A DNA stretch of 64,000 bases from Halorhabdus rudnickae (lineage in GTDB: Archaea > Halobacteriota > Halobacteria > Halobacteriales > Haloarculaceae): NCBI RefSeq assembly GCF_900880625.1, contig NZ_CAAHFB010000001.1, positions 1,054,001 through 1,118,000 of the forward strand, given 5' to 3'. A program made the position numbers and the translations under genes. Shown here piece by piece: positions 2,689 to 60,979 of this stretch (its first letter is position 1; every line of letters starts with the position of its first letter). The notes below the pieces were generated by a model. That model did no database searches. It saw nothing but the letters and a program-made list of their open reading frames with translations, and was not told the origin of the DNA.

Positions 2689-2689
2689 A

Positions 2690-5428: not shown

Positions 5429-5581
5429 TGTTATCAGATACTATAGCGCGTCGAAGTAAAAGTATCGACGATGAAAGCCACGCGAAATTGGTGAGAGGGG
5501 TTGGGCAGTAAGCCCCGAATACAGACGGTGAGCGTTCGATATATGCGATTTTCAACGGTAAGAATGGCCTTCGGATGGCTA

Positions 5582-6307: not shown

Positions 6308-6417
6308 AATGGATGCCCTCGCCGCGGGTTACGGTAGGATGGGACGGCATCGGTGAAAAAGCCTTCCGCATCGATCCAATAGACCGACAGGAGATGTCGT
6401 CCTCCGGGCGTGGACCA

Positions 6418-6843
6418 TCACTCGGCGTGGACGGCCGCTGGATCGACCCAGATGACGAACCCCTCTTCACGTTTGACGATACCTTTGATGGAACTGGCGC
6501 CCATCCCTGCCGGAGAGGCATCGACGTTCTCCGGGTCGACCTGCCGAACCTGGCGAACCTCGTCGACCAGCCAGCCGGCGGCCTCCTGATCTTGGACGAT
6601 ATCGGGATCGAAGACGACGATCCGCCGTTCCTCGCCGGAGTCGTCGATGTCGAAGACGACCTTCGGGTCGACGATGGCAGTCGTCCGCCCGCGTAAGTCC
6701 ATGACGCCCTCGACGTGGCGGGGCGAGCTCGGGACGGCCGTCAGCTCCCCGACGTCGACGATCTCGGTCACATAGTCGATACTCACGCAGTACGTCTCCT
6801 CGCCGAGTTCGAACTCCAGGACTTGTCCGGTTGAATCTGACAT
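6418..6843 (-). CDS. cheW: Chemotaxis coupling protein CheW
   Basis: 141 residues from the ATG preceded by a strong GGGAGG ribosome-binding site. A longer in-frame start 63 bases upstream would add a non-conserved Arg/Gly-rich leader and is rejected. The CheW fold is clear: VLEFELGEETYCVSIDYVTE, then PRHVEGVMDLRGRTTAIVDP, and IKGIVKREEGFVIWVDP at the end. CheW bridges transducers and CheA. It is the first gene of the leftward che/archaellin run and divergent from cheB, with ~265 bases of shared upstream DNA. Confidence 0.96.
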   Translation of the reverse strand: MSDSTGQVLEFELGEETYCVSIDYVTEIVDVGELTAVPSSPRHVEGVMDLRGRTTAIVDPKVVFDIDDSGEERRIVVFDPDIVQDQEAAGWLVDEVRQVRQVDPENVDASPAGMGASSIKGIVKREEGFVIWVDPAAVHAE

Positions 6844-7108
6844 CTGTGACTCCCTCCCGGCGGCGACCCGTGTTGGACCCAGCGAACGGGTCGTGCCACC
6901 GGGCAACGGTATCTCTCACTTCCGTCAAAATCACCATAAGTGTGTCCATCGGGTTATCAAGGTTGATTACGACGGCGGAGTCTTTATCTGGCCCGTTGGG
7001 CAACGTTCGGAGAGAGTGCAAAGAACGTGATCAGGCGCGGTCAGTCGGTAGCCGGCGCGCGTGTGACCACATTTAACCCCCAGGACCGAAAGCAAAGCAA
7101 CAGATAAC

Positions 7109-8188: not shown

Positions 8189-8193
8189 CCAAC

Positions 8194-10194
8194 ATGGAGG
8201 ACCAATATCTCGACGCGTTCATCCGTGAGAGCGAGGAGGCGATCACGGAGCTGAACAACTCGTTGCTCGAACTCGAATCGGACCCGGACGACCAGCAAGC
8301 GATGGACTCGATCTTCCGGACGGCTCACACGCTGAAGGGCAACTTCGGCGCGATGGGCTTCGAGGAAGCGAGTAACCTAGCCCACGCGATCGAAGACCTG
8401 CTGGACGAGATGCGCCAGGGGGAGATGGATGTCACCCCCGAGATCATGGACCTCGTCTTCGCCGGTGTGGACGATATCGAAGCCATCGTCGGCGAGATCG
8501 AAGCCGAGGGCGAATCGACGGTCGAGACCGCAGCGATGGTCGAAGACATCCGGACGGTCATCGAGGAAGGTGCCGACGCGGCCGGTTCCGACCACGAGGC
8601 TGGTCGTGACCGATCCGAAGACGGATCGGCGTCCGGTGAGGACAGTACCGCAGCCGCCGACGGCGACACGGTCGACGTCGAGTCCGTCCTCGAACGCGTG
8701 GACGTCCCGAAACCAGACGAAAGATCGGTCTACCACGTCAGCGTCGACGTCGGCGACGGGAACATGCAGGGTGTCGATGCGATGCTCGCCGTCGAATCGC
8801 TGATCGAAGAACTCGACGTGCTTGCGACCGATCCCGACCGGGAGGCCATCGAGGACGGTGACTTCGAGGAGACGTTCTCGGCGTTCGTCGCTGACGACGA
8901 CGGAGAGAGCGTCCAGTCGACACTCGACGGGATGGGTCCCATCGAGGCGGCGACGGTGACCGACGCGACCCAAGCAGTCGCGGCGTCGGACACTGGATCG
9001 ACCGACGACGGGGGCTCTACGCCATCGTCGTCGGCGAGCAGCACCGACTCCTCGGTCGACGAGATCAAGTCAGTCCGGGTCGATGTCGGACAACTCGATA
9101 CGCTCCACGGGCTGGTCGAGCAGCTAGTCACCAGTCGGATCAAGCTTCGACGAGCGGTCGAAGACGAGAGTCTGGACTCGGCCAACGAGACGTTGAACGA
9201 ACTCGATAAGATCACCGCCAGCCTCCAGAACACCGTCATGGACATGCGGTTGATCCCGCTGCGGAAAGTCGTCGGAAAGTTCCCCCGGCTGGTTCGGGAC
9301 CTCTCGCGGGATCTCGGTAAGGAGATCGAGTTCACTATCGAGGGTGAGGACATCGAACTCGACCGGACGATCCTCACCGAAATCTCCGATCCCCTGATGC
9401 ACATCCTCCGGAATGCCGTCGATCACGGGATCGAATCTCCCGAAGAGCGCGAACAGAAGGGCAAGCCACGCGAAGGGCATATCGAATTGCGGGCCTCCCG
9501 GGAACGCGATCACGTCGTCATCACTGTCGAGGACGACGGCGCGGGGTTAGATGTCGAAGGGATCCGCGAGCAAGCCCTCGAAAGCGGAGTCCGCTCGGCA
9601 GACGAACTCGAGCGGATGGACGACTCGGCGATCTATGACCTCGTGTTCCACCCGGGCTTCTCGACGGCCGAAGAAGTAACCGACACCAGCGGTCGTGGCG
9701 TCGGAATGGACGTCGTCCACGAGACGGTCACGCAACTGGACGGGTCAGTCAACGTCGAGTCGACCCAGGGCGAAGGGACGACTGTCTCTCTGCGCCTGCC
9801 GGTGACCATGGCCATCGTGAAGGTGCTTTTCGTCCAGGTCGGCAAGGAGCAATACGGAATCCCGATCAAGAACGTCGACGAAATCACCGCAGCCACGGAG
9901 GCCCGAACGATCAACGGTAACGAGGTCATCAAGCACAACGACGAGATCTACCCGATCATCGACCTTGCGGAAGGCTTCGACGTCCCCGGGGAGACCGCAA
10001 ACGGCGACGGCATGCTCGTCCGCGTCCGCGAGTCCGAACGGAAGGTCGCTCTCCACTGCGACGAGGTCAACAGCCAGGAAGAAGTCGTCGTCAAGCCCCT
10101 CGAAGGCATCCTCTCGGGAACGCCTGGACTCTCGGGGACAGCCGTCCTCGGCGACGGAAACATCGTCCACATCCTGGACGTCGTGACGCTGTAG
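8194..10194 (+). CDS. cheA: Chemotaxis histidine kinase CheA
   Basis: 666 residues with the full CheA order. The P1 Hpt domain has phospho-accepting His45 in FRTAHTLKGNFG. An acidic linker and P2-like CheY/CheB-docking region span about 150-250. The P3 dimerisation helices lie at about 290-350. The P4 kinase domain has N box HILRNAVDHGIE, G1 VEDDGAGLD and G2 GRGVGMDVV. The P5 CheW-like domain runs from about 540 to the end. It autophosphorylates and passes phosphate to CheY and CheB. GGAGG lies 14 bases upstream inside the end of cheB. No key residue is missing. Confidence 0.97.
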   Translation: MEDQYLDAFIRESEEAITELNNSLLELESDPDDQQAMDSIFRTAHTLKGNFGAMGFEEASNLAHAIEDLLDEMRQGEMDVTPEIMDLVFAGVDDIEAIVGEIEAEGESTVETAAMVEDIRTVIEEGADAAGSDHEAGRDRSEDGSASGEDSTAAADGDTVDVESVLERVDVPKPDERSVYHVSVDVGDGNMQGVDAMLAVESLIEELDVLATDPDREAIEDGDFEETFSAFVADDDGESVQSTLDGMGPIEAATVTDATQAVAASDTGSTDDGGSTPSSSASSTDSSVDEIKSVRVDVGQLDTLHGLVEQLVTSRIKLRRAVEDESLDSANETLNELDKITASLQNTVMDMRLIPLRKVVGKFPRLVRDLSRDLGKEIEFTIEGEDIELDRTILTEISDPLMHILRNAVDHGIESPEEREQKGKPREGHIELRASRERDHVVITVEDDGAGLDVEGIREQALESGVRSADELERMDDSAIYDLVFHPGFSTAEEVTDTSGRGVGMDVVHETVTQLDGSVNVESTQGEGTTVSLRLPVTMAIVKVLFVQVGKEQYGIPIKNVDEITAATEARTINGNEVIKHNDEIYPIIDLAEGFDVPGETANGDGMLVRVRESERKVALHCDEVNSQEEVVVKPLEGILSGTPGLSGTAVLGDGNIVHILDVVTL

Positions 10195-10309
10195 CGGGCC
10201 TGCACACACCGTCGGTTGTGACGGCTATCCCTTTTGTACGCGTGAGACCGTTGACAACCGTTGCAATCAATACTACCGAGCCCTCACTACTGGGTAACGT
10301 GACCTATCG

Positions 10310-11125
10310 ATGAGTCGCCGGTCAGGATCCCAGCGGGGATTTGAGTCCCTGCTCGAGTACCTCGAGTCGGAGCTATCGTTCGAATCCGACTTCTACAACG
10401 ACGCCTACATGGACCGGCGGATCACCGCCCGGATGCGTCGCACTGACAACGAGAACTACCGCACTTACAAGCGGCTGCTCGAAAGCGACCCCGATGAGCA
10501 GGAAGCGCTGCTGGATTCGCTTTCGATCAACGTCACCGGGTTCTTCCGTAACCCCGATGCCTGGGAGGGACTACGGCCGATCCTCAAGAGGTTGACCGCC
10601 GAAAACCGCGAGGTCCAGGCCTGGAGTGCGCCCTGTGCCGACGGTCGCGAACCGTACTCCCTGGCGATGCTCGCCCGGGACGACCCGGACATCCGGGCCG
10701 ACCGGCTGGACATCCTGGCGACGGACATCAACCCTGATATCCTGGAAACGGCACGCAACGGGGTCTACGAAGCCTCCCAGACAAGCGACATCGAGGCGGA
10801 GCTGGAACCGCTGGCAGACAGCGACCGATACATCGACCGCGAGGGCGACACCTTCACCGTCCGGGACGACATCCGCGAGATGGTCTCCTTCAAACAGCAC
10901 GATCTCATCGGCGGCGACCCAAAGAGCGGGTTCGATCTCCTGCTGTGTCGGAACTTCCTCATCTACATTGATGCCGCCTACAAGAACCCGATCTTCGAGA
11001 CTATCCGCGGCTCGCTTCGATCGGGCGGGTACCTCATGATCGGAATGACCGAAACCATTCCGGCTGGCGCGCGCTCGGCCTTCGAGGCGGCCGACAAACA
11101 ACACCGGATCTACGAGCGGACATGA
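10310..11125 (+). CDS. cheR: Receptor methyltransferase CheR
   Basis: 271 residues. An N-terminal helical CheR domain (FESLLEYLESELSFESDFYN; TARMRR) is followed by a SAM-binding methyltransferase domain with WSAPCADGREPYSLAM in place of the common CSTGEEPYSLAM, then LATDINPDIL and LLLCRNFLIYID. It methylates glutamates on transducers, opposing CheB. It lies 115 bases after cheA. Its stop is one base from the start of the HEAT-repeat gene, so the two are co-translated. Confidence 0.96.
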   Translation: MSRRSGSQRGFESLLEYLESELSFESDFYNDAYMDRRITARMRRTDNENYRTYKRLLESDPDEQEALLDSLSINVTGFFRNPDAWEGLRPILKRLTAENREVQAWSAPCADGREPYSLAMLARDDPDIRADRLDILATDINPDILETARNGVYEASQTSDIEAELEPLADSDRYIDREGDTFTVRDDIREMVSFKQHDLIGGDPKSGFDLLLCRNFLIYIDAAYKNPIFETIRGSLRSGGYLMIGMTETIPAGARSAFEAADKQHRIYERT

Positions 11126-11126
11126 T

Positions 11127-12353
11127 ATGTCACTCTTCCAATTAGAGCGAGAGGGCGACGTTCAGGAACTTATCAGATTACTCCGTGAGAGCGACAACGA
11201 CGACGTCCGACAGCGTGCAGCGTCGATCCTGGGAGAGTTCGACGACCACCAGGATCGCCGAGACATCGTCAGTGCGCTCGTCCGGGCTGCCCGAGAGGAC
11301 GACACCGGTGCGGTGACCGCGGCAGCCGTCGACTCGCTGGACGACCTCGGCGGGGACGCGATCGAGGCACTGATCGAGGATATGGCCGGGGCTGATTTCG
11401 ACGCTGAGAGTGCCGAGTGGGTGCGCGCAAAGGCGTTCATCAACGCTCTGGAGGCCGACGTGCCGGAACTCCGGATGGCCGCCGCCAACGGACTCGGCCA
11501 GTTCGGCGACAACGACGCGATCGAGCCGCTGGTGGCTCGCTTCGAGGACGACGATCCCCGCGTCCGGGCGCGGGCAGCACGGGCCTGTGGATCGATCGGG
11601 GATCCGCGCGCTGTGAGCGCACTAGAAGAGTTGCTCACTGATCCGACAGTCGTGGTGCGCCGGGAGGCCGCCGAAGCACTGGGGCAAATCGGCAATCGGC
11701 AAGCTCTGGGGGCGTTGCTGGACATGTACGACGACCCCTCCGAGCGCGTCCGGCGGATCGCCGTCGGCGCGTTCGGCAACTTCGAGAACGCCTCGCCGGT
11801 CGATGCGCTAGTGGCGGCCCTCTCGGACGAATCGGCGATCGTCCGTCGGACAGCGGTGTACTCGCTCATCGAATTGCTCGCGAACGTCCCGACCGAAAAG
11901 AGCCACGAAATCAGAGAGACGATCGTCGATCGGTTGAGCGAGACCGACGACGAGAGTGTCGTCGTGCCGCTGGTCGAGATCATCGAGGAAGGGACACAGG
12001 CCGCCCAGCGGCGCAATACGGCGTGGTTGCTGGGACGGGTCGTTACTGACGCCGACGAGCGGGTGGTCGATGCACTCGTCGAAACACTCGCCGACGACGA
12101 TCAGATGACCGCCCAGTTCGCGGCGACAAGCCTCGCCCAGCTTGAGGACGACCGCGTCGAGGAGCGACTGCTCGATGTCGTCACGGACACGGATCAGCCC
12201 ACGAATGCCCGGACGCAGGCGATCTTCACGCTGGGCAAAGTCGGCGGCGATCGCGCCCGAGAGACACTCGATACACTCTTAGACGAGACCGACGAGGAAG
12301 AGGTCCGTAAACGGGCCTTCTCGGCGATTTCGAAACTCGGGGGTCGACTATGA
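11127..12353 (+). CDS. HEAT-repeat protein co-transcribed with cheR
   Basis: 408 residues, almost entirely HEAT/PBS-lyase-like helical repeats of ~31-35 residues. Examples are ELRMAAANGLGQFGDNDAIE, RVRARAARACGSIGDPRAVS and VVRREAAEALGQIGNRQALG. No catalytic motif or membrane segment is present, so it should be a cytosolic protein-binding scaffold. The start is one base from the cheR stop. HEAT-repeat genes occur near che/archaellum genes in other haloarchaea, which supports a motility-related adaptor role, perhaps with CheF or the transducer array; this is inference. The N-terminus (LFQLEREGDVQELIRLLRES) already fits a repeat, so this start is right. Confidence 0.9.
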   Translation: MSLFQLEREGDVQELIRLLRESDNDDVRQRAASILGEFDDHQDRRDIVSALVRAAREDDTGAVTAAAVDSLDDLGGDAIEALIEDMAGADFDAESAEWVRAKAFINALEADVPELRMAAANGLGQFGDNDAIEPLVARFEDDDPRVRARAARACGSIGDPRAVSALEELLTDPTVVVRREAAEALGQIGNRQALGALLDMYDDPSERVRRIAVGAFGNFENASPVDALVAALSDESAIVRRTAVYSLIELLANVPTEKSHEIRETIVDRLSETDDESVVVPLVEIIEEGTQAAQRRNTAWLLGRVVTDADERVVDALVETLADDDQMTAQFAATSLAQLEDDRVEERLLDVVTDTDQPTNARTQAIFTLGKVGGDRARETLDTLLDETDEEEVRKRAFSAISKLGGRL

Positions 12354-17878: not shown

Positions 17879-18796
17879 TTATGTCGCCTGCCCTTCCGCG
17901 AATTCCTCGGCGAAGAGGACATAGATGAACAGCGTCGGCAGCGCGGCGAGGAAGGCGCCAGCCATCCGCAGCGGGAAGTTGACCCCGCTCAGGTCGGCAC
18001 CGAGGCCCGACAGGATGAGCGTGATCGTCGCAGCCTCGTCCGAGGAACTGCCAATCAGAGTCAGCGAGAACAGGAACTCGTTCCAGATCTGGGTGAACTG
18101 GTAGATCAGCACGACGCCAATCATCGGCTTCGAGAGCGGCAGGACGATGCGAGTGTAGATCTTCGTGATGCTCGCCCCGTCGACTTTCGCCGCTTCGACG
18201 AGTTCCTTCGAGATCCCCTTGTAGTACGACCGGAACAACAGGAAACAGATCGGGATCCCGTAGGCAACGTGGGTGAGCGTCAGTTCTGCCAGAGTCCCCC
18301 ACCGATCGCTCGGCGGGAGGATCGTGATGCCCTCGATGATCACGCCGTTCGTGAGCGGCAGGATGTTGGTCCAGAAGTCACTCAGCGGGACCAAAATTGC
18401 CTGATACGGGAGGAAGATCCCGAAGACGAACAGCAACACGACGGGCATCTGGCGGCGCCAGTCGACCAGCGTCAGGCCGTAGGCAGCCATGCTTCCCAGC
18501 AGGACGTCGAGTATCGTCGAGGGGATCGCCATCGCGAAACTGTTGATGAACCCGCGGCTGAGCAGGTCGAACGCCCGCCCCCAGTTCTCAAGGGTAAAGT
18601 TCGCCGGCGTGGGTGGCAGGAACGGCGTCGTCGCCGCGCCGCTGGATTTCAGCGACGTGACCAGCCCTGTCCAGATTGGCGAGAGGAAGAAGGCCGTAAA
18701 GAACAGGACCAGGAAGTAAATCCCGAGTCGGCTGTAGCTCATGTCCGGCAGTATGCGCGCGACACCGTTTCGTTTCGAGTCGGTTGCTTGACTCAT
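17879..18796 (-). CDS. Sugar ABC transporter permease (MalG-type, CUT1)
   Basis: 305 residues, about six membrane helices. The BPD permease EAA loop reads EAAKVDGASITKIYTRIVLPLS, where the ATPase docks. The N-terminus before the first helix is short, as in MalG-type subunits. It starts two bases after the stop of the partner permease, so the two are co-translated. Together with the other permease, the binding protein and the ATPase it makes a complete CUT1 importer for a mono- or oligosaccharide; the sugar cannot be read from sequence. Confidence 0.93.
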   Translation of the reverse strand: MSQATDSKRNGVARILPDMSYSRLGIYFLVLFFTAFFLSPIWTGLVTSLKSSGAATTPFLPPTPANFTLENWGRAFDLLSRGFINSFAMAIPSTILDVLLGSMAAYGLTLVDWRRQMPVVLLFVFGIFLPYQAILVPLSDFWTNILPLTNGVIIEGITILPPSDRWGTLAELTLTHVAYGIPICFLLFRSYYKGISKELVEAAKVDGASITKIYTRIVLPLSKPMIGVVLIYQFTQIWNEFLFSLTLIGSSSDEAATITLILSGLGADLSGVNFPLRMAGAFLAALPTLFIYVLFAEEFAEGQAT

Positions 18797-18798
18797 CG

Positions 18799-19755
18799 TT
18801 AGAGTGCCCTCGCTTTGTACTGGTAGTAGAGGTACGGCGCAACCACGACCAGTGCCATCGCGAGGAGGATGGTCGCGATCGCGGCAGAGTACGCCCAGTT
18901 CTGGAGATTGAACGCCTCTCGCACCATCAGCGTGGCGAGAACGTCAGTCCCCTTGGGCGGGCGATACGTCCCGAACATCGCATAGAGGAAGGTGAATATC
19001 TTCAGCGCGAAGATCATCAACACGACCGCCGCGCTCACCGACGCAGATTTCAGCTGCGGAATGATAACCCGCCAATACGTTTTGATGGTACTCGCGCCGT
19101 CGACCTTGGCTGCCTCGAACTGGTCGTTGGGAATCGACTGCAGGCCGGCGATGAACACGACCATACAGTACCCGCTGAATTGCCAGATCAACGCGAAGAG
19201 CACCGACCCGAGGACCAGCTGTGGATTGCCGATCCAGTTGTACGGCCCGAGGCCAAACAGCCCGACGATCGTGTTGATAAGTCCGTTCTCGTAGTTGTAC
19301 ATCCACAGCCAGAACTGGGCTGTCACGACGAACGACAGCGCCATCGGCAGCAGGTAGATCGTCTGGACCTTCCCCTTCTGACGGATATCCCGGTCGAGGA
19401 GAATAGCCAAGAACAGTCCCAGTACCAGTGATATCGTCGTGAAGGCCACCAAGAGGACGAACGTGTTCTTGCCGGTCGAGAACACAGCCGGATCTCCCAG
19501 GGCCTGGACGTACATACTGAAGTCGAGCTGGCTGTAATCCGGTGGCTGCAGGAACCCCTCGTACTCCGTGAGCGAGATCAAGAAGTTCCAGATGATCCCA
19601 CCGTAGACGGCGAGCCCCATAAGTAATAGCGGGAGCGCCCAAAACGGCGAGGATCGTAGGAAGTCACTCTTCCAGAACTGGCGTAACCGCTGTTGCCATC
19701 CGTAGCCTGCGGCTGTGGAACCAGTGTCCGCTACCGCATCCTGTGTGCGTGACAT
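18799..19755 (-). CDS. Sugar ABC transporter permease (MalF-type, CUT1)
   Basis: 318 residues with six predicted helices after a ~35-residue cytosolic N-terminus. The EAA loop is EAAKVDGASTIKTYWRVIIP. It pairs with the MalG-type permease just downstream and follows the binding-protein gene by 33 bases on the same strand. It forms half of the transmembrane channel of the importer. Confidence 0.93.
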   Translation of the reverse strand: MSRTQDAVADTGSTAAGYGWQQRLRQFWKSDFLRSSPFWALPLLLMGLAVYGGIIWNFLISLTEYEGFLQPPDYSQLDFSMYVQALGDPAVFSTGKNTFVLLVAFTTISLVLGLFLAILLDRDIRQKGKVQTIYLLPMALSFVVTAQFWLWMYNYENGLINTIVGLFGLGPYNWIGNPQLVLGSVLFALIWQFSGYCMVVFIAGLQSIPNDQFEAAKVDGASTIKTYWRVIIPQLKSASVSAAVVLMIFALKIFTFLYAMFGTYRPPKGTDVLATLMVREAFNLQNWAYSAAIATILLAMALVVVAPYLYYQYKARAL

Positions 19756-19788: not shown

Positions 19789-21168
19789 TTACTGTGAAAC
19801 CGCGTCAGTGAGCGCGGACGCGGTCGCTTCGACATCGAATGGGCCCATGAAGTTGTTCCCGATTGCAGTCATCGCCGCGTCCATCCGTTCGGGCGGCAGC
19901 GCGAGCCCGTGGGCGATCGCCGGCGGGAACTTCTCTTTGTTGGCCAAGTGTTCGGAGTTCAACGCGAGGAAGTCCGTCAGCCGACTCGTGTCGATGTCAG
20001 TCCGGAGCGGGATGCAGCCTTTCAGATTACCGAACGCGACTTGGGCGTCTTTCGTACCGACGAACTTCGCCCAGGTCTGCTGTTTGACGGGCGTCTCAGT
20101 GTCACGCGCGAACGTGAACGCGTCGATGTGGAGCTGGTACATGTCCTCCGTGCCGGGGTAGGCCATCCAGTCCCAGTCGGTCTGGTACTCGACACCGCTG
20201 TCCTCGGCGCGGTACATGCCGTAGGCCCAGTTGCCCTGCTGAATACAGCCCGCGTTACCCTCCATCATCTGCTGGTTGCCCTCGGTGAAGCTGATCGTCG
20301 AGGCGTCCGCATTGATATGGTTCTTCAGCATCTCCGCCGTGAGCTCGAGGGCCTGCGTGAGATGTTCCTGATCGACGTCGCCCTCGATGAAGTTCATATA
20401 GGCGTCGTAGCCGCCCTCCATGCCGAGGAAGTTCTGGAAGACGAGTTGCAGGGTCGGCCACGTACTCGACATCGCATGAGTCATCGGGTCCGCGTCGGTT
20501 TCCTCACCGATCGTCTGTAATGCATCGAGCAGCGCGGTCGGGCTGTCGACCGAAGACGGATCGACGCCGGCCTCCTCGAAGACGTGAACGTTGAAGAACA
20601 GGTTGTTCATCCGGTGAGAGCCGATCGGCATCGACCGAAATTCACCGTTGAGCTTACACTGCTCGGCGGCCATGGAGTTCATCGAATCGACGTAGCCGTT
20701 CTCTTCCCAGACGTCGGTGATGTTCGCCAGCAAGCCACCGTACTGAGTGATGTTCTGTCCGGGCCAGGCTTGCCAGGCGGCCGGCGGGTTTCGGTTGGCA
20801 AGCCGCCGTGCGACGACAGAGTCGAGGTTGACGTTCCCCGTCCCGCCGATGGGGCGGAAGTTCGTCGCCATATCCGGATACTCCTCCTTGAACATCGACG
20901 TCAACTCTTCGATGGCCGCCGCGCCGTCCCCGCCGGTCCATGCGTGCAACACTTCAAGTGCAGTGTCGTTTGGTGTCGGCCCCATCTCGGTCATCCCACC
21001 AGAACCATCGCCACCACCGGTGTCCCCATCACCAGGCGTGTCGGCCGGCGCCTCAGTCGTGTCGCCGCTCCCACAGCCTGCGAGACCGACCGTCGCGAGC
21101 CCCGCTGCCGTGCCGATCACTGTTCGACGCGAAACCGAACCATCGCCAGTACCGTTATCCGATGTCAT
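19789..21168 (-). CDS. Sugar ABC transporter substrate-binding lipoprotein
   Basis: 459 residues. A Tat signal (SRRTVIGTAAG) ends at lipobox Cys32 (GLAGC), then a Gly/Asp/Thr-rich linker. The mature part is a type-1 extracellular solute-binding protein (LEVLHAWTGGDGAAAIEELT, QGNWAYGMY), related to glucose/xylose-type binding proteins of CUT1 transporters. It is the first of three binding-protein/permease genes with tight spacing. The promoter has a TATA box centred about 29 bases before the ATG and a short palindrome directly before the start codon. The exact sugar is unknown. Confidence 0.92.
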   Translation of the reverse strand: MTSDNGTGDGSVSRRTVIGTAAGLATVGLAGCGSGDTTEAPADTPGDGDTGGGDGSGGMTEMGPTPNDTALEVLHAWTGGDGAAAIEELTSMFKEEYPDMATNFRPIGGTGNVNLDSVVARRLANRNPPAAWQAWPGQNITQYGGLLANITDVWEENGYVDSMNSMAAEQCKLNGEFRSMPIGSHRMNNLFFNVHVFEEAGVDPSSVDSPTALLDALQTIGEETDADPMTHAMSSTWPTLQLVFQNFLGMEGGYDAYMNFIEGDVDQEHLTQALELTAEMLKNHINADASTISFTEGNQQMMEGNAGCIQQGNWAYGMYRAEDSGVEYQTDWDWMAYPGTEDMYQLHIDAFTFARDTETPVKQQTWAKFVGTKDAQVAFGNLKGCIPLRTDIDTSRLTDFLALNSEHLANKEKFPPAIAHGLALPPERMDAAMTAIGNNFMGPFDVEATASALTDAVSQ

Positions 21169-21284: not shown

Positions 21285-22445
21285 TCAGGCCGGTTCGGCG
21301 CCGCGGAGCGGGCGGTCGCCTTCGACGTCACCGAGGTCGCGGTTGTGTAGGGACTCGCCGGTCTCGCCGTCGAAGATGTGGATCGCGTTCTCCGGGAGCC
21401 CGACCCCGATGGACGCCGCCTCCGGGACGTTGCGCATTCCACTTATCGTCGCGGTCAGCTCGGCGTCAGCCCGGTCCTGTCCCTCGAAGGCAACGTGGAC
21501 AGTGTTCTCGTTCCCCATTGGCTCGACCACGTCGACGACGCCCGGGAACTCGTGTTCGCCACTCGGGGCGTCTACGATCTCGATGTCTTCCGGTCGGATA
21601 CCCAGAACGAAGTCCGTCTGCCCTTCCAGATTCGCGAGCGTTTCCTCTCCGAGGGGATACTCGAAGTGCTCGCTGACGAGGTGGCCGTCTTCGAGCGTCA
21701 CGGGGAGGAAGTTCATCGACGGTTCGCCGATGAATCCAGCCACGAACTGGTTGTTCGGACGGTGATAACACTCCAGGGGCGTCCCGATCTGCTGGAGTTG
21801 ACCGTCGTTGAGAACGGCGATCCGGTCGGACATCGTCATGGCTTCGGTCTGGTCGTGTGTGACGTAGATCGTCGTCGTGTCGAGGTTCTCCTGGAGGTGC
21901 TGGAGTTCGGTCCGCATCTCCGAGCGGAGTTTCGCGTCGAGGTTCGCCAGTGGTTCGTCCAGCAGGAACGCGTCCGGTTCGCGGACGATCGCCCGACCGA
22001 GCGCGACGCGCTGTTGTTGGCCGCCGGAGAGTTCGTCCGGCTTACGATCGAGAAGGTTGTCGATGCCGAGCATCGTCGCCGCGTCCTCGACGCGCGTATG
22101 GATCTCCTCGTCGGAGAGTTCGGTTGCCTCCTCGAGCCCGAAGGACATGTTCTCCCGGGTAGTCATGTGCGGGTACAGCGCATACGACTGGAAGACCATC
22201 GCCACGTTTCGTTCCTGGGGCGAGCGATGCGTGATCGGCTCGCCGTCGACGCTGATCGTACCTGTGGTCGGGGTCTCGAGGCCCGCAACCATCCGGAGCG
22301 TCGTCGACTTGCCACACCCTGACGGACCGACCAGTACCAAGAACTCGCCGTCCCTGATGTCGATGTTCACGTCGTCGACCGCGACGATTTCCCCGCTCTC
22401 ATCTTCGAAAATCTTGGTCACTTCGTCGAGGGTCACATTCGCCAT
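21285..22445 (-). CDS. Sugar ABC transporter ATP-binding protein (MalK/UgpC-type)
   Basis: 386 residues starting at MANVTLDEVTKIF. The frame extends 107 codons further upstream, but that part is not conserved, and the TATA box sits just before this ATG. The motifs are Walker A GPSGCGKST, Q-loop VFQSYALYPHMT, signature LSGGQQQR, Walker B AFLLDEPLANLD and switch VTHDQTEA. A C-terminal TOBE/regulatory domain from about residue 240 includes LGIRPEDIEIV. It powers the adjacent sugar importer. It is encoded upstream of the binding-protein gene on the same strand with its own promoter between. Confidence 0.94.
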   Translation of the reverse strand: MANVTLDEVTKIFEDESGEIVAVDDVNIDIRDGEFLVLVGPSGCGKSTTLRMVAGLETPTTGTISVDGEPITHRSPQERNVAMVFQSYALYPHMTTRENMSFGLEEATELSDEEIHTRVEDAATMLGIDNLLDRKPDELSGGQQQRVALGRAIVREPDAFLLDEPLANLDAKLRSEMRTELQHLQENLDTTTIYVTHDQTEAMTMSDRIAVLNDGQLQQIGTPLECYHRPNNQFVAGFIGEPSMNFLPVTLEDGHLVSEHFEYPLGEETLANLEGQTDFVLGIRPEDIEIVDAPSGEHEFPGVVDVVEPMGNENTVHVAFEGQDRADAELTATISGMRNVPEAASIGVGLPENAIHIFDGETGESLHNRDLGDVEGDRPLRGAEPA

Positions 22446-22465
22446 AAACGTTTGTGCGGCATTAC

Positions 22466-22777: not shown

Positions 22778-24652
22778 TCAGTCGGAAACGGGTTCTGAGT
22801 CGAGATAGAGTTCAGCGTCGCTATCGGTGTCGAACTCGTCGAGGGCGTCATGTAGCGGTCGCGCGTAACGGGTGAGGTCGCAGGCTCGTTCGGATACTTC
22901 ATTGAGTTCCGCAGCCTGTTCCTCGGCTGCACCGGCGACGATGCCGGACTCAGCGAGGGTCTCCTCGCTGAGTTCGGCGACTTCGCCGACGCGGGTAGCG
23001 ATCTCTCCGAGACGATCGATCGATTCCTGCACCTCCTGGTCGGCGTACTCCTCGGCCCACTGCTCGAAGGTGTCCGCGAGGTCGTCGATCTCCCGGGAGA
23101 CATCCTGAAGTTGTTCCTTCTGCTCGTCGGCGTCATCGGCGATGCGTTGGACGGAGTCGGCGACGTGGCCGCTGGCGACACGGACGCTGTCGGAGCTGGC
23201 CTGTAGTACTTCACCTGTGTCCTCTACTCGGACAGCGAAGCGTTTCAGCTGGTCGGTCGTCCGCTCCAGTTCCGCGACCATCTCGTTGAAGTCAGTCGCG
23301 ATCCGATCCATAGCGTCGTTCTCGCCGTCGGGATCCAACCGCTGGGTGAGGTCTCCCTCGGCACACTGGCGCATGATCCGAGAGTACTCCTCGGCTTTCT
23401 CCTCGAGGTAGCGGTTCATCTCCATGGCTTCCGCCCGCGACACTTCGGCCTCCTTGCGCGCCCGTTCAGCTTCCGTGATCTGCTGGCGTAACGACGACCG
23501 CATATTCTCGAAGCCGGCGTACAACTCGCCAATGGCGTCGATACGGGTGGTAGTGACAGTCGTCTCTAGATCGCCCTCACGCATCTGACGGGCCCACTCG
23601 CGGAGTCGGTTGATGTCGCGAGTGGTGTTATACCCGATGACCGCGCCGAGTGCGACCACAAGCAGGACGCCCGCGAGGGTGGCGAGTCTCCCCCAGCGTG
23701 AGATGGCCCACACGAACCCGAAGACGTTCGAACGCGGCTCGTGGATGAGGACCGTCCAGTTCAGCGGGACGTTCGAGACGCGGATCGGGGCGTACCCGAC
23801 GGCGTACGGCTCCGAGAGGACGGCGTCCTGTGGTGCCATCTCGGGAATTACGCCCGCACGCTGATCGGACTCGAGTAGCCCAGGTGCGAGACGGACCGGC
23901 CGCATCGCGTCGTCATCACCGTACTGACCGAGTATCTCTTCGTCGTCCCGGGCGACCTGGACGATCCCCTCGTCGTTGACGACCTGGGTGAAGCGGGCTT
24001 CGCTGTCGGTGTCCAGGGACGCCGCGAGATTCTCGACGGAGTACTCCATGACGAGGTACCGGTTTGGATGACCGGTGACCGGACTGACGAACGCCACGAC
24101 CGGGGTGCCACTCACCCGGTGGACATCCGTGATGTGGACATCCATCACGTTCAGCGAGTCAATCGGACTGGACTGAATCCAGGCACGGGACGTTTCGGAG
24201 AGGTTCCTGGCGAAGGTGAGCTGTGGACTCGCGACGACCCGATGGTCGGTGCCGCTCCCATTCACCAGATAAATCGCGTGAGCACCGTAGACGTTGCCAG
24301 CAGTAGTAGCCAGTTCCTGGCGGATCCCGAAGCGAGAGCCTGGTTCGTTCGCACTGAAGGCCCGGTTTTTCGAGGCGAGTTTGACCGAGATCGAGTTCCG
24401 CTCGATCCACGTCTCGATCGAATTGGCCTGCTGGGACGCCAGGTTCTGGTACTGCTGTTCGACGTTCCCTTCCACCTGATCGACGACGGCTCCCGTCGCC
24501 GTCGCCCCGATGACAGCGACGGTCAGACCCATGACCCCCAGAATGAGCGCGAACTTCAACGTGAAGCGCCGCCGAACGAAGTTCGGCACGGCGCGGCTGA
24601 GCAACCGAGTTCGGTCCGGCCCCGACGTGTCCGGGTCATGCGGGTCTGCCAT
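22778..24652 (-). CDS. Transducer-like protein (Htr) lacking the signalling tip
   Basis: 624 residues from MADPHDPDTSG; the 82-codon upstream extension is not conserved. It has a membrane helix at about 28-52, an extracellular sensor domain of ~260 residues (Cache-like by layout), a second helix at about 317-340 and two HAMP-like regions (about 340-390 and 430-480). A shortened antiparallel coiled coil follows. Its first arm (SVQRIADDADEQKEQLQDVS) and last arm (VAGAAEEQAAELNEVSER) match the ends of the normal transducer at 58571-60979. The ~160 residues between them, including the hairpin that binds CheA/CheW ([18 protein letters not shown] in that protein), are absent. The frame is intact, so this looks like a designed form, not decay. 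It lies upstream of the sugar ABC genes on the same strand. Confidence 0.85.
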   Translation of the reverse strand: MADPHDPDTSGPDRTRLLSRAVPNFVRRRFTLKFALILGVMGLTVAVIGATATGAVVDQVEGNVEQQYQNLASQQANSIETWIERNSISVKLASKNRAFSANEPGSRFGIRQELATTAGNVYGAHAIYLVNGSGTDHRVVASPQLTFARNLSETSRAWIQSSPIDSLNVMDVHITDVHRVSGTPVVAFVSPVTGHPNRYLVMEYSVENLAASLDTDSEARFTQVVNDEGIVQVARDDEEILGQYGDDDAMRPVRLAPGLLESDQRAGVIPEMAPQDAVLSEPYAVGYAPIRVSNVPLNWTVLIHEPRSNVFGFVWAISRWGRLATLAGVLLVVALGAVIGYNTTRDINRLREWARQMREGDLETTVTTTRIDAIGELYAGFENMRSSLRQQITEAERARKEAEVSRAEAMEMNRYLEEKAEEYSRIMRQCAEGDLTQRLDPDGENDAMDRIATDFNEMVAELERTTDQLKRFAVRVEDTGEVLQASSDSVRVASGHVADSVQRIADDADEQKEQLQDVSREIDDLADTFEQWAEEYADQEVQESIDRLGEIATRVGEVAELSEETLAESGIVAGAAEEQAAELNEVSERACDLTRYARPLHDALDEFDTDSDAELYLDSEPVSD

Positions 24653-24824
24653 GGTTTCCCTTATAGCTATGAAGTTGCACGGGCCTCCATATAATTTCCC
24701 CGACGAAAACGTCTCCACAGCCATATGATAGGAGACGAGCCACAGATGCGACAATAAGATCTCCAGAGTGGAGGCCGGGCCGATCCATCCTATCCGATGC
24801 CGATATTCCCCACTATTGTTCAAA

Positions 24825-25311: not shown

Positions 25312-27240
25312 TCAGTGGAGAACATCGGCGTCGATCCGTTGGTGACGGTCGTCCACTGCCTGGGCATCTTCAGGGAGTAACGCAACGAACAGGACTTCGA
25401 CGTGCTCGGCAAAGTGATCGATGAGGCTGGCGATCCGTTCGGCGTCGATCGCTTCCAGAGAGTCAAGCAACAAGAACGGTACCTCCTCGTAGACTTCGTG
25501 ACTCAAGTATCCCGCCAGAGCGAACACGAGACCGATCAATTCGCGTTCGCTCTCGCTGAGGTTGTCGACAGTCTCTTCGTAACTGGTCCCGTCCTCGCCC
25601 TCACGGACGACGTGGAGTGCGAACGTGGTGTCGGCGTCGGGGCTCGTATCTGCGGTCCGCCGCTCGATCCAAATGCGCGCGAGGTTCTCGTAGGCGAGAA
25701 CGTCGAGTAGGTCATCCATCTGGCGGTTGAACGTCTCGACGGCACGGCGTTCCAACTGGTCGATCCGTGCACGCTCTTGGGCGATCTGCTCGCGTAGACC
25801 CTCGCGTTCGGCGGTGAGGTCCTCAACGCCAGGCAGTGACTCGATCTCGTCGATCTCCTCGCGGACGTCCCCCAGTCGTTGCTCGAGTTGTCCCCGTTCG
25901 TACTGGTGATCGCTGACCTGCTCGTACATCTCGAGTAGATCGTCGTCGCGCAACTGCTGGGTCTCGGCCACTTCGGACTCCAGATCGACGATGCGCTCTG
26001 CGAGCTCGGACTCCCGGGCTCGTAATGTCGAGAGACGGTCGCGTTTCTCCGAGAGGTGTTGGTCGACGGTTCGGCGTTCCCGATCGACGCGTTCGCGTTC
26101 CGCTAGTTCCTCCTCAATTTCCGCACGACGATCCTCTAGGTCTGCCACGTGACTCTCGATCTCGGCACGTTCGGTGCGTTTCTCGTCGATGACTTCTCCG
26201 AGAGCGTCCAGTCGCTCGTCGACGTCGCCGCGGGATACCTGGCTCCCACAGGTCCAGCAAATGAGGTCCTGCTGTTCGTCTGGGGCGATCTCTGTCACCG
26301 GCCCGGCATCGGCCGGCTCGATACCGGGCAGTTCCAGAGAGCCCGCCAGAAGGTCCCGGTTGAACTCCACAATAGTAATCAAGGAGTTTATAGTTTCTTC
26401 GAGTTGTCGACGACGTTCGCGGGCAGCGGCCAGGTCATCTTTGACCGATTCGAGGTCCTCGTCCGTGTACTCAGTGTCACGCCCGTCCTCGAGGTCGGCG
26501 AGTTCGTCCTCCAGAGAGTCTATTTCGGCCTCGACCACCTCGATCTCGTTCTCCACGCGGTTGTGCTCCCCACGGGTTTGCTCGAGTTCCTCGACGAGGG
26601 CATCGGCCTCGGCCGCCGTCGATTGGTCGGCCTCGTAAGCGGCGATCTCCTCACGGAGGGACTCGATCGTCTCGTCAAGGGATGCGATCTCCTCCTCCAG
26701 GGAACGACTGCGATCTTTGAGTACTGGTAGCCGATCTTTGCGCTCTCGGACTCGTTCGATTTGGTCCTCAAGCTGTTCGGTCTCGGCCCGGAGGGATTCG
26801 ATTCGCCGCTCGATCTCGTCGGTGTCGACCGGCCGCATAATGATTTCCCTGAGATCGTCACCCCGCTCGACGGCCTGTCGGGCCGGATTGTCTTCGAGCA
26901 GAGAAACGAAGGTGTCGATCAGCGACGTCTCGTCGACGTACGGCTCGCCACCGACGCGAACAGAGTTGCTTGTTCTTTGAAATTCCCGCGTGTGACGCTG
27001 CTCACCAACCTGCAACTCGACCGACCCTTCCTCGGCATCGCTCTTGAGAGAACCACTCGATCCCCCGAGCGAGCTGGCGACCGCCGAGAGGAACGACGTC
27101 CGGTTCGTTGCATTCCGGCCGCGAAACACGGTTACGCCAGGGGAGACCGAGACGTCGGCATGATCGATCCCGCCGACATTGTCGACCGTGATCGTGACCG
27201 ACTGGTTGTCGATTGACCGATCACTCGCATTTGTAGCCAT
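25312..27240 (-). CDS. Archaea-specific SMC-related ATPase (Rad50/SMC-like, zinc hook)
   Basis: 642 residues from MATNASDRSIDNQ; a leaderless TATA box supports this start over an ATG 246 bases upstream. The ATPase head has the unusual P-loop GRNATNRT at 41-48, with Arg where Lys is expected. Two long coiled-coil arms flank a CWTCG zinc-hook-like motif near residue 326. The C-terminal half-head has signature-like NLSESERELIG and Walker B PFLLLDSLEAID. The altered P-loop is, as I recall, characteristic of the archaea-specific SMC-related family and not damage. It is divergent from rdfA with 104 bases between. It probably acts on chromosome organisation or cell shape together with RdfA; the mechanism is unknown. 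Confidence 0.9.
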   Translation of the reverse strand: MATNASDRSIDNQSVTITVDNVGGIDHADVSVSPGVTVFRGRNATNRTSFLSAVASSLGGSSGSLKSDAEEGSVELQVGEQRHTREFQRTSNSVRVGGEPYVDETSLIDTFVSLLEDNPARQAVERGDDLREIIMRPVDTDEIERRIESLRAETEQLEDQIERVRERKDRLPVLKDRSRSLEEEIASLDETIESLREEIAAYEADQSTAAEADALVEELEQTRGEHNRVENEIEVVEAEIDSLEDELADLEDGRDTEYTDEDLESVKDDLAAARERRRQLEETINSLITIVEFNRDLLAGSLELPGIEPADAGPVTEIAPDEQQDLICWTCGSQVSRGDVDERLDALGEVIDEKRTERAEIESHVADLEDRRAEIEEELAERERVDRERRTVDQHLSEKRDRLSTLRARESELAERIVDLESEVAETQQLRDDDLLEMYEQVSDHQYERGQLEQRLGDVREEIDEIESLPGVEDLTAEREGLREQIAQERARIDQLERRAVETFNRQMDDLLDVLAYENLARIWIERRTADTSPDADTTFALHVVREGEDGTSYEETVDNLSESERELIGLVFALAGYLSHEVYEEVPFLLLDSLEAIDAERIASLIDHFAEHVEVLFVALLPEDAQAVDDRHQRIDADVLH

Positions 27241-27263
27241 CCGTGGAGAATTCACACGGTCAG

Positions 27264-27273
27264 TTATAAAAAA
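27264..27273 (-). promoter_or_regulatory. TATA box of the SMC-related gene
   Basis: TTATAAAAAA (leftward TTTTTTATAA) is centred about 28 bases before the ATG at 27240, in the short intergenic space shared with rdfA. Confidence 0.6.
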
Positions 27274-27344
27274 GTACGCATCCGATAGTCGACGAAATGG
27301 GCCGGTAGCGTCATGTGCCAGGGCATCTAACCCAGTACTGACAG

Positions 27345-28019
27345 ATGGTCGATAGCGAACAGAACGGGAGCGACACACGGCCGTCCGAGAGTGACGGATG
27401 CTCGTGCAAAGTTGGACGGGTCGCCGACCGATACACTTTGGGAGGATTAGACGAGGAGCTTCGTCGCCGATACACGGCCGAGGCAAGCTTACGGGACTTA
27501 GAGACGTTTGTCAACGAGCGAATCCTCCGGACGGCTATCGAACAGGCAGGCGAGGCGGTCCCTGCGCTCGTTAGCAGCGACAGAGGGATCGGCGCGCTAT
27601 ACGAAGTGTTACGCGACGAGGAAGGGACTGCGGCCGCCGAACAGGCTCGGCTAGTGACGCGGCTCGAACAGGCAGGCGTCGACGTGGACGCAGTCACGGA
27701 TGACTGGATCTCTCACGCCACGATCAGGACCCACCTCAACGACTGTCTCTCAGTGGACACCGCCCGCGAAGCCTCGATCACTCCCGAGGGAGCGATCAAT
27801 ACCGTCGAGTGGGCCCGCTCACGCTCGGAGAGCGTCGTCAGCGAGACGGTCCAGCGCCTCAAAAACGCCGATGTCGTCGAAGTAACCGAACCCGACGTGA
27901 GCGTCTCAGTTCGGATCACCTGCGAGGCCTGTGGCCGTTCCTACGCCGTGCAAGATCTCCTCGATGCCGGTGGCTGTGACTGTAATCGGGGAGATTCACT
28001 GGACGAGGAACGTGAGTGA
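27345..28019 (+). CDS. rdfA: Rod-determining factor RdfA-like protein
   Basis: 224 residues. The N-terminus has the family pattern CKVGRVADRYTLGGLDEELR followed by a helical domain. A winged-helix-like region (GAINTVEWARSRSESVVSET) lies at about 140-175. The C-terminus has a four-Cys zinc ribbon, C-x2-C...C-x-C (ITCEACGRSYAVQDLLDAGG then CDC). RdfA was described in Haloferax as needed for rod-shaped cells; other haloarchaea carry several paralogues, usually next to an SMC-related gene, as here. The divergent arrangement and shared promoter region support a functional pair. Confidence 0.85.
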   Translation: MVDSEQNGSDTRPSESDGCSCKVGRVADRYTLGGLDEELRRRYTAEASLRDLETFVNERILRTAIEQAGEAVPALVSSDRGIGALYEVLRDEEGTAAAEQARLVTRLEQAGVDVDAVTDDWISHATIRTHLNDCLSVDTAREASITPEGAINTVEWARSRSESVVSETVQRLKNADVVEVTEPDVSVSVRITCEACGRSYAVQDLLDAGGCDCNRGDSLDEERE

Positions 28020-28182: not shown

Positions 28183-28935
28183 ATGCACCGATCAGATGGC
28201 CCGAGCGTCGAGGCGGTTCATACGAGCCTCGATGTCCTCGAAGTGGTCGTAGACCTCGGAGGAGCCGGAGTCAGTGAAATCGCCCGCCGACTCGACCGGT
28301 CGAAAGGGGGCATCTACAAGCACGTGCGGACGTTGACAGATCGAGGGTATCTCGTCGAGGACGGGACCACCTATCGGCCCGGGTTACGGTACTGGACGAT
28401 CGGGACTGACGTCCAAGACCGGTTGTGCCCCGAAGGGGCCAGATCAGTCGTCGATGACCTGGCGGCATCGATCGGGCATACCGTCGTCCTGGTCATCTAC
28501 GAACGGCCGACCGCGGCCGTCATGTACAGTCAGGCTCCGACCGGGAACGCCGTCCAGCCTGTCGCGGAGGGTGACTCGCTGCCGATGTACGCCACCGCCG
28601 CCGGAAAAGCCATCCTGGCGTACCTCCCTGAAGACGAACGCGAGGCGATCCTCGACGGCGACCTGCCCGCTCACACGGACGCGACGCTCACCGATCCGAA
28701 GACGATCACCAGGGCTCTCGAAGACGTTCGCGAACAACGGCTGGCCCGGGATCACGGAGAATTTCTCCCAGATGTCGAGGCGATCGCCGCGCCCATCGTC
28801 GACTCCGCCGGGTACCCCCGTGGTGCGATCGCGGTCACCAGCGGCCCGGAGAAACTACTAGAAGGAGATCTCGAGGCGGATGCGAGTCTGGTCGTCAGCG
28901 CGTCGAAGTCTCTGGAGAACACGTTGACCAGCTAA
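28183..28935 (+). CDS. IclR-family transcriptional regulator
   Basis: 250 residues. The N-terminal winged helix-turn-helix spans about 8-70 (TSLDVLEVVVDLGGAGVSEI, ARRLDRSKGGIYKHVRTLTD). The C-terminal IclR effector-binding domain spans about 85-250 with PMYATAAGKAILAYLPEDE and an IAAPIVDSAGYPRGAIAVTS-type end. IclR proteins usually sense a small carbon metabolite and bind palindromes at promoters. A 19-base palindrome directly abuts its own TATA box, and three like it lie upstream of the transducer-like gene, so autoregulation and control of the nearby sugar unit are likely. The ligand is unknown. Confidence 0.93.
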   Translation: MHRSDGPSVEAVHTSLDVLEVVVDLGGAGVSEIARRLDRSKGGIYKHVRTLTDRGYLVEDGTTYRPGLRYWTIGTDVQDRLCPEGARSVVDDLAASIGHTVVLVIYERPTAAVMYSQAPTGNAVQPVAEGDSLPMYATAAGKAILAYLPEDEREAILDGDLPAHTDATLTDPKTITRALEDVREQRLARDHGEFLPDVEAIAAPIVDSAGYPRGAIAVTSGPEKLLEGDLEADASLVVSASKSLENTLTS

Positions 28936-58570: not shown

Positions 58571-60979
58571 CTATCGTTCGTCTTCGTTCGTCTCGCTAGT
58601 TTCGAATTGCTCGATGAGATCTCTGAGATCGGTCGCTTGGCTGGAGAGTGTCTCGATACGTTCCGAGACTTCCGTGATAGAAGCCGTCTGCTCTTCGGAA
58701 GCTCCAGCGACGTTTTCGGCTTCGGCGGCCGTCTCCTCGCTGATCGACCCGACTTCGTCGGCCATCGCGACCACTTCTTCGGTCGAGGCCGCCTGTTCGT
58801 CAGTCGCATCGCTGATCGCTTGCACACCGTCGTTCGCTTCTTCGATCTGGCGAACGATGTCAGTCAGCGTCTCCGCCGCGTTATCGACTGTCTCCTTCCC
58901 TGTCTCGACGCTTTCGTCCATCTCCCGAATATCTGCCACCGTGTCGTTTGTCCGGGACTGGACTGTTTCGATCAGCGACTCGATGTCGTTGGTGGCTTCC
59001 TGCGTCTCTTCGGCGAGCGTCTTGATCTCGTTGGCCACGACCTCGAAGCCTTGGCCTGCCTCACCCGCGCGACTCGCCTCGATCGAGGCGTTCAACGCGA
59101 GCATATTCGTTTGATCGGCGATATCGTCGATCAGCGTCGTGACTTCACCGATCCGATCCATCTCGGCCGCGAGAGCCTCGACTTGCTCGATAGCCTCGGT
59201 GGATTTCCGTTCGATCGTCTCGATCTCCGCGGCTGCCCGCTGAGCGGACGTGCGGCCGGATTCACCAGCTTCGACGGCCGACTTTGACTTCGCTGCGACT
59301 TCATCTGTCGATGAGGTGATCTCTTCGACCGTTGCCGAGAGATCGGTCATCTCCTGAGAGACCTGCTGGATGTTCTCGTTCTGTCGATCGGCCCCTTCGG
59401 CGATCTGCTGGACCGATTGACTCACCTGTTCGCTAGCGGACTTTATTTCCTGGGTGCTCGCGGTGATCGTGTCCGTCGACGTATCGACAGTCCCGGCGAA
59501 CTCTTCGAGACGCTCGATCGTCGCTTCCAGTTCGGCGACCATGTCGTTGAAGTTTTCGGCGATCTCAACCATCGCTTCGTACTCGCTGTCGGTATCCATC
59601 CGCTGAGTGAGATCGCCCGCAGCTGCCCGATCCATCACGGCACTGAACTCGGTGGCCTTCGCTTCGAGCGCCGAGGCCATCGATTCCGCGTCCTCCTTTG
59701 CCGCCTCGGCATCGTCTCGTGCTTGCTCGACATCAGTGATCAGTGTCTGGATGTCTTGCCCCATCTCGTCGAGGGCCTTTCCGAACTCACCGGGGACCTC
59801 CTCCTCGAGGACCGGATCGTCGAACCGCTGCTCTGCAAGCGCGTCAGCCTGCTCGGCGGCAGTCGTCAAGTATGCCTGCATCGACGCGAACGAGTCGTAT
59901 AGCTGGCCCATTTCGTCGACACGAGTCGTCTCGGGGAGCGTACTGTTGATATCACCGTTCGCGATGTCTTCGGCCGTTTCGGCGACAGTTGCGAGCGATT
60001 GTGCAGTCCCACGACCGATCGTCACCCCGACGAGTATCAACGTGCCGACAGCCAGCGCGACGAGTAACCCGATGTTCTGGGACACGGCAGATTGCAGTGC
60101 GAACGCGCGATCCGACGGGACGTGATAGAGAAGGGCCCATTCGGTCCCGGTGATCGGTGTATATGCCATTACGTACTCGCCTTCGCCCATCCCCGTACCC
60201 GCGGAGACGCGTTCGTATCCCGTCTCACCGTTGAGCGCGGCATCGACACTCTCCGATCCAGTGTTGCCAGTCGCTTCGAACTGTTCGAGTATCGATGCCT
60301 TTCGGTTGTCCAGGATGATCGTTCGGTCGGAGCTGACGACTTTCACGTCTCCAGTCGCGAACGGGGACGTGAACTCGTGAGACCGCGCTTGAAGAGACAC
60401 TGTCAGCACGACAGACTCCGTCTCACTGACGGGCTGGACGAATGCCAGGACATCCTGACCTTCGCTTTCGTATGGCGGGGACGTTCCCGTCGGACCGGAC
60501 GTGACGATCGCACCGCTACTGTCGGTCCATGCCGCCTCGACACTGGCAAGCGACGCCCCGGTCAGATCGTCATCAGTACTGGCGATGACCTCACCTTCCG
60601 CGGTCGTCACGTAGTGCAACGCCCGGACATCGGCCGGTAATCCGATGAGTTTCCCTTCGAGCCATCGCTGGTGGGCTGACGGCGAGAGCGATTCCGAACG
60701 GTCGCTGATCGTGTCTGCAAGGAACAATGTCGTCGACTGTTTGGTTGCAGCCCACTTCGAGATCGAATTGGCTTGCGAGTCCGCAACGCCACGGATCTGT
60801 TCTTCAGTCTGGGACTCGACGAGTCCGCCAGTCTGGAAGTGAATCACCACACCGCCAACGACGAGGACGGCCACCACAACCAGCAACAGCACACCGAACT
60901 TCGCGGCGTAGCGACGTCTGATAACGTCCGGAAGCGCGCTTTCGATCGCCACCACGAATCGCTTGCGAAGAGAGCTCAT
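58571..60979 (-). CDS. Halobacterial transducer (BasT-like methyl-accepting protein)
   Basis: 802 residues. A first membrane helix lies at about 26-48 and an extracellular sensor to about 295. The second helix is [20 protein letters not shown], followed by a HAMP with [18 protein letters not shown], a second HAMP near 450-500, and a full signalling coiled coil from about 498 to the end. The tip ([35 protein letters not shown]) is intact near 620-650, with Glu/Gln-rich methylation heptads on both arms. It overlaps the binding-protein gene by four bases, as in Halobacterium BasB-BasT, so it should sense that protein's ligand and signal to CheA/CheW. Confidence 0.94.

Follow-up and report, generated by a model that had tools for sequence, protein, structure and literature searches.

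Haloarchaeal transducer-like receptors lacking the CheA/CheW-binding tip form a family in the Haloarculaceae

The tip of known chemoreceptors binds CheA and CheW, and the receptors themselves are homodimers. For AF1503 of Archaeoglobus fulgidus, also a HAMP receptor, no output domain is known. Haloarchaeal Htr/MCP transducers of the double-HAMP kind, such as HtrII, are built from a sensor, transmembrane helices, HAMP1, HAMP2 and a coiled coil. Two transducers of Halobacterium salinarum, BasT and CosT, are coupled to the binding proteins BasB and CosB, and the partners copurified (PMC3579733). Truncated chemoreceptors with new roles are already known: Tls of E. coli B2 strains has gone from chemotactic signalling to another function (PMC12623472).

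Here we describe a receptor gene, P0001, from a window of 64,000 nucleotides of Halorhabdus rudnickae DNA, and the family to which it belongs. The architecture of P0001 is that of the Htr/MCP transducers, and solved HtrII HAMP chains are its best sequence matches in the PDB; it differs in that the CheA/CheW-binding tip and ∼163 surrounding residues, present in those transducers, are absent. Like BasT and CosT, several of the tipless receptors are encoded beside a binding protein. AF1503 is also an archaeal membrane receptor whose cytoplasmic end consists of HAMP and coiled coil without an enzymatic output, and its HAMP matches P0001, but the tipless family is transducer-derived, with two HAMPs, both arms of the MCP bundle, conserved residues and a tail. 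Tls shares with the family the state of a truncated chemoreceptor, its role lying outside chemotactic signalling (PMC12623472), yet it is the reverse case, a mirror image: of Tls a portion of the cytoplasmic signalling domain remains and the sensor and membrane part are gone, whereas the tipless proteins keep sensor, HAMPs and arms. In the openly accessible literature that we searched, tipless transducers are not described.

The window receptor and its missing hairpin

The reading frame of P0001 runs uninterrupted through 624 codons on the minus strand (22778-24652). Its features, and the normal transducer of the same window with which it was compared, are as follows.

22778..24652, minus strand: tipless transducer-like receptor P0001, 624 aa, from the ATG at 24652 to the stop codon ending at 22778 (open reading frame and translation)
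24689..24697, minus strand: putative TATA-box-like AAATTATAT, ∼37-45 nt upstream of the ATG (proposed from reading the sequence)
23720..24571, minus strand, residues ∼28-311: TM1, extracellular predicted dCACHE-like sensor and start of TM2 (AlphaFold, Foldseek)
23483..23638, minus strand, residues 339-390: HAMP1 (best PF00672 stretch)
23228..23386, minus strand, residues ∼423-475: HAMP2 with preceding linker helix (second HAMP stretch; alignment with the tipped transducer)
23048..23227, minus strand, residues ∼476-535: retained N arm of the coiled coil (hydrophobic periodicity; modelled helix 441-535)
23030..23047, minus strand, residues 536-541: predicted new turn in place of ∼163 tip residues (two AlphaFold models)
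22838..23029, minus strand, residues ∼542-605: retained C arm (alignment; modelled helix 542-605)
22781..22834, minus strand, residues 607-624: C-terminal tail (tail survey)
58571..60979, minus strand: normal tipped transducer for comparison (MCPsignal PF00015, E 4.7e-42)

Pfam matched HAMP as two stretches in P0001, the first of which is also matched by profile to solved HtrII and AF1503 HAMP structures, and Foldseek matched the modelled sensor to dCACHE domains of amino-acid chemoreceptors (such as PctA/PctC/CtaA, E ∼1e-8). No match to MCPsignal (PF00015) was obtained. Neither the dimerisation and ATPase domains of sensor histidine kinases after HAMP nor any other output domain was found by Pfam, and NCBIfam gave no output domain above cut-off, its kinase matches being partial and far below it. 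A WXG100 hint (E 0.003) fell short of the cut-off and was disregarded as probably caused by the coiled coil. Pfam, alignment and modelling give P0001 the membrane sensor, HAMP and antiparallel coiled-coil arms of an MCP, and it probably signals through HAMP and coiled coil as an MCP does. The MCP-defining MCPsignal region with its CheA/CheW-binding hairpin tip is absent by both Pfam and alignment; because this defining feature was checked and is missing, we withhold the name MCP. In Halorhabdus amylolytica, the nearest named relative found, the orthologue is 87% identical over the whole of P0001.

The original prediction placed both coiled-coil arms in register with the normal transducer, with ∼160 residues between them absent and no frameshift, and alignment agrees: sensor, HAMP1, HAMP2, N arm and C arm are in register and the hairpin between the arms is missing. 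A hydrophobic period of 3.5 extends over residues 460-533. From the FNxM of HAMP2 to the EEQ pair there are 118 residues in P0001 and 117-118 in 40 of the 46 tipless proteins measured (range 111-118), against 281-286 in tipped receptors, and therefore ∼163 residues are gone. Where tipped proteins have 184-193 residues, all 48 tipless homologues have 14-23.

Structure prediction of the short coiled coil, which had been proposed as a check, gave a bundle closed by a turn at the same place in both models. For the whole of P0001 AlphaFold (mean pLDDT 72) placed helices at 370-431 and 441-535, a turn at 536-541 and a helix at 542-605; the cytoplasmic part alone, modelled at low confidence (mean pLDDT 62), also turned at 536-541. 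Both models are of monomers. The tipped transducer has its tip centre at residue 640, and its AGASEEQ begins at 758; arithmetic on these alignment positions predicts a turn centre at ∼536.5 in P0001 if the tipped pairing register is kept. This prediction implies a similar loss from each arm, ∼82 residues, and a shortened bundle able to pair in register. As modelled, the hairpin bundle of P0001 would thus be closed by a new turn at 536-541.

A single tipless family under purifying selection

The view of a single aberrant gene proved too narrow. P0001 is one of three tipless genes in its genome, since two further full-length tipless proteins are encoded there, one of them 49% identical to P0001 over its length, and it is one member of a family. 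Counting full-length contiguous matches across 146 genomes of the GTDB family, intact tipless homologues were found in 69, at 1-4 copies each. In a class-wide sample of 292 genomes, where scoring outside the family was limited to the top 8 candidates of each genome and divergent cases could escape, tipless proteins occurred only in this GTDB family; the other families had long tipped receptors matching mainly the HAMP and N-arm part. An assembly gap at P0001, named at the outset as something that would undo the prediction, is ruled out, as is a frameshift, since the same stretch is missing from the two paralogues and from homologues in 69 genomes. Homologues carrying the tip at this position had been named likewise, and all 48 of the nearest relatives examined are tipless.

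One branch separates 46 tipless from 36 tipped sequences (SH-aLRT 99, from a quick search without bootstrap, the columns of the deleted stretch being excluded). Repeated independent deletions of the tip were set aside, as the tree requires just one. Over seven close orthologue pairs dN/dS was 0.10-0.15 for the whole protein, 0.05-0.16 for the cytoplasmic part and 0.12-0.17 for the sensor half, and in six pairs the cytoplasmic part was the more constrained of the two. In one genome the members of a tandem tipless pair share 93% identity over their cytoplasmic parts and 52% over their sensor halves, as would be expected if receptors change ligand while keeping one output. The tipless receptors therefore form a family of single origin that has lost the tip, keeps intact frames and is under purifying selection.

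These values also bear on the idea that P0001 is a non-functional remnant or an assembly artefact, which has in its favour that the deletion removes the defining output part. A remnant would need dN/dS near 1; the observed values lie far below it and exclude a pseudogene, the artefact is refuted above, and the independent genomes form a single clade with intact frames. We regard this explanation as having almost no chance of being correct.

At eighteen positions, D507, E582 and Y596 among them, at least 80% of tipless proteins share a residue that is rare in their nearest tipped relatives. They matter for a further explanation, in which tipless proteins act as dominant-negative or buffering subunits that form mixed dimers with tipped transducers through the shared HAMPs and arms and so silence them. 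The aligned register of arms and HAMPs would allow this, and in one genome (L083) a tipless gene lies directly upstream of a tipped one. The tipless-specific residues, however, run across the HAMP linker and arms and argue for a separate interface; ∼80 residues of each partner arm would stay unpaired; the known chemoreceptors form homodimers; and one genome, G091, described below, keeps a tipless gene without a tipped partner. We therefore consider mixed dimers very unlikely. The earlier suggestion that the receptor may inhibit found no specific backing, whether as mixed dimers or as binding of Che proteins.

Gene neighbourhoods

Downstream of P0001 lies a sugar-type ABC operon, and two further genes lie on its other side.

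21285..22451, minus strand: MalK-type ABC ATPase, the next gene downstream of P0001 (PF00005 and MalK OB/TOBE; same order at related loci)
19789..21168, minus strand: solute-binding protein of an ABC system, SBP_bac_1 (Pfam; conserved cluster c4)
18799..19755, minus strand: putative ABC permease 1 (position and hydrophobicity; conserved cluster c5)
17879..18796, minus strand: putative ABC permease 2 (position and hydrophobicity; conserved cluster c6)
25312..27486, minus strand: SMC-like coiled-coil ATPase-fold gene, lying between P0001 and the IclR-type regulator (AAA_23; cluster c10)
28183..28935, plus strand: IclR-type regulator (PF01614/PF09339; cluster c2)

Homologues with the same deletion had been expected especially beside sugar ABC genes, and they were found there: of 48 tipless genes surveyed, nine, P0001 among them, head such an operon in one order, across at least four genera (at one of the nine loci the MalK gene was missed by the simple gene finder). 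Genes of cluster c2, one checked member of which is IclR, lie near several homologous tipless genes, and a cluster c10 gene occupies the equivalent place in three related loci. Elsewhere a Peripla_BP_6, SBP_bac_1 or SBP_bac_8 gene lies directly upstream of the tipless gene, or genes for pyruvate kinase, PfkB, ROK or KDPG aldolase adjoin it. We compared these surroundings with those of tipped genes, using one detection method for both sets. Tipless loci had ABC/SBP or sugar-catabolism genes nearby in 26/41 cases and tipped loci in 4/40 (p 6e-7); for ABC/SBP genes alone the counts were 19 and 4 (p 4e-4). These p values are optimistic because most of the queries had been taken from tipless loci, to the advantage of that set, and orthologous loci are not independent. 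The remaining 15 of the 41 tipless loci had no such neighbour, and no partner gene was universal across 46 tipless neighbourhoods, in which gene clusters vary by subclade.

The recurrent operon raises the possibility that the receptor regulates the adjacent ABC transporter directly, its HAMP state being passed by contact to the MalK subunit or the permeases. Conservation of the receptor with the operon at nine loci in at least four genera speaks for it. Most members, however, have the same cytoplasmic part outside such operons, and some sit beside unrelated genes (aspartokinase-type or HerA-like, for example), so that as an account of the family direct regulation seems improbable. The proposal that P0001 senses for the transporter is a reasonable, if tentative, lead from the conserved operon.

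Several other features of these loci were recorded. In the window, a Peripla_BP_6 binding-protein gene (60976-62211) lies directly upstream of the normal transducer (58571-60979), in the manner of BasB/BasT-type pairs, and a chemotaxis cluster (CheC-type, CheB, CheA, CheR; 962-12353) with an adjoining HEAT-repeat gene lies ∼10 kb from P0001. A dCTP deaminase gene with an intein adjoins a tipless receptor gene (L069, 6187-8211). A 941-aa frame (L019; genome G000, contig C1, ∼1299593-1300612) has an MCP signalling domain and, after it, SBP_bac_1 (E 2e-16), a fusion of receptor and binding protein, and in the tail survey the frame L148 (G005, C14, ∼556000-560500) has a C-terminal end similar to that of this fusion.

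Adaptation region, chemotaxis genes and the route of output

Several methylation-type motifs of the normal transducer are in the strict form, which is reportedly that of H. salinarum transducers. The N-arm motifs are lost from the tipless proteins. The C arm carries a near-invariant AGAAEEQAAE, whose EEQ is residues 577-579 of P0001, and the AGAAEEQ of P0001 aligns with the strict C-arm site of the normal transducer (AGASEEQ region). In nearly all tipless proteins the last small residue of the strict motif, after EEQAA, is E, so that one EE pair, a putative methylation site, survives in relaxed form and the strict motif fails. The claim that most methylation heptads are absent was accordingly overstated: it stands for the N-arm sites, while the region nearest HAMP2 is kept, the C-arm AGAAEEQ pair included.

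An F-x-F motif lies within the last 30 residues of 38/48 tipless proteins (in L023 it falls just outside that stretch), of 22/22 nearest tipped relatives, all from other haloarchaeal families, and of 0/42 tipped proteins sampled from the window's own family. The family tail motif is ExEHEF[VY]F. It is degenerate in P0001 (DAELYLD), and F-x-F is mostly lost in the window's own sugar-operon subclade. The CheR/CheB pentapeptide is a C-terminal xZxxZ, with Z being F, W or Y, and classical pentapeptides are reported absent from Halobacteriales (PMC7390727). P0001, whose tail ends DAELYLDSEPVSD, has no C-terminal xZxxZ, and the family F-x-F differs from it and sits short of the terminus. The tipped relatives L157-L176 and L027 (families f3 and f7, Natrialba) have C-terminal extensions, mostly long and acidic; in all 22 nearest tipped relatives these end in F-x-F or F-x-Y, possibly a docking tail.

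These features suggest the main rival explanation, an accessory receptor of the adaptation branch that would be unable to drive CheA. Its methylation-region bundle and its tail would instead bind CheR, CheB or CheD, or compete for them, and ligand would in this way shift the adaptation state of tipped receptors. The nearly invariant EE pair and the distribution of F-x-F are in line with it, as is the presence of CheW in 67/69 tipless genomes against 40/77 other genomes of the family (p 8e-11), an association that could reflect either a role tied to chemotaxis or merely shared ancestry. On the other hand, nearly every member has the strict motif broken, the window's subclade has lost F-x-F, the reported lack of classical pentapeptides extends to the whole order, and the tipless genes surveyed had no identified che gene as immediate neighbour.

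The two tipless genomes without CheW bear on this explanation. G091 (89% complete, 60 contigs) gave no MCPsignal, CheW, CheR or archaellin match, whereas its complete congeners have 7-16 strong MCPsignal and 2-6 archaellin-type matches; the chance of missing seven dispersed loci is ∼2e-7 if losses from assembly are independent. Its tipless gene is intact and lies at a PfkB/pyruvate kinase locus conserved in relatives, with a cytoplasmic dN/dS against congeners of 0.07, a value that spans both lineages and the time before any che loss. G070 (380 contigs) lacks MCPs, CheW and archaellins but has CheR and is ambiguous, so that the che-less case is carried mainly by G091, a single assembly. Retention of the gene there without CheR, CheW or MCPs speaks against an adaptation role as the general function. 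Such a role may hold in motile species; for the family we judge it unlikely, though the most serious of the alternatives.

We favour the explanation that the tipless proteins are chemoreceptor-derived solute sensors whose output does not pass through CheA and tunes how the sensed solute is taken up or used, and give it a probability of about 0.42. One ancient internal deletion in a Haloarculaceae chemoreceptor would have excised the tip together with stretches of similar length from the two arms. A solute, frequently a sugar, would be sensed by the predicted dCACHE domain, often with the help of a solute-binding protein from a neighbouring gene, and the signal would pass from TM2 through HAMP1 and HAMP2 to the shortened four-helix bundle. 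With no CheA/CheW-binding tip, output would not go via CheA; a putative partner recognising the shortened bundle, the tail or both would adjust uptake or use of that solute. The single clade, nearly constant gap length, constrained cytoplasmic part, shared turn of the two models and 18 tipless-specific positions all fit such a sensor, as do the commoner ABC/SBP or sugar-catabolism neighbours and the intact gene of G091. Against it stand the lack of a universal neighbour, the loci without sugar or ABC genes, the CheW association, which fits a chemotaxis role although ancestry confounds it, and the methylation-type residues and F-x-F tail common to tipped relatives, which hint at kept Che contacts.

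The original prediction that P0001 cannot join arrays in the usual way gains support from tip loss as a stable evolved state; judged from sequence, ordinary array membership is not expected. The signal of tipless receptors probably leaves by a route other than the chemotaxis kinase. Slightly more tentatively than the sensor reading itself, we suggest that they constitute a distinct class of archaeal solute sensors, in which one near-symmetric excision of the hairpin left HAMP and the adaptation-region bundle as output module, duplication diversified the sensors, and sugar uptake or use came to be controlled without CheA, even where chemotaxis and archaella have been lost. The tip is usually seen as the most conserved and indispensable part of a chemoreceptor, and this family has stably lost it, yet has spread across a haloarchaeal family with all that lies upstream of the tip kept under selection. 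It is thus a natural experiment on what HAMP and the adaptation bundle can do by themselves, and makes it possible to test directly whether a chemoreceptor can pass on its signal other than via CheA.
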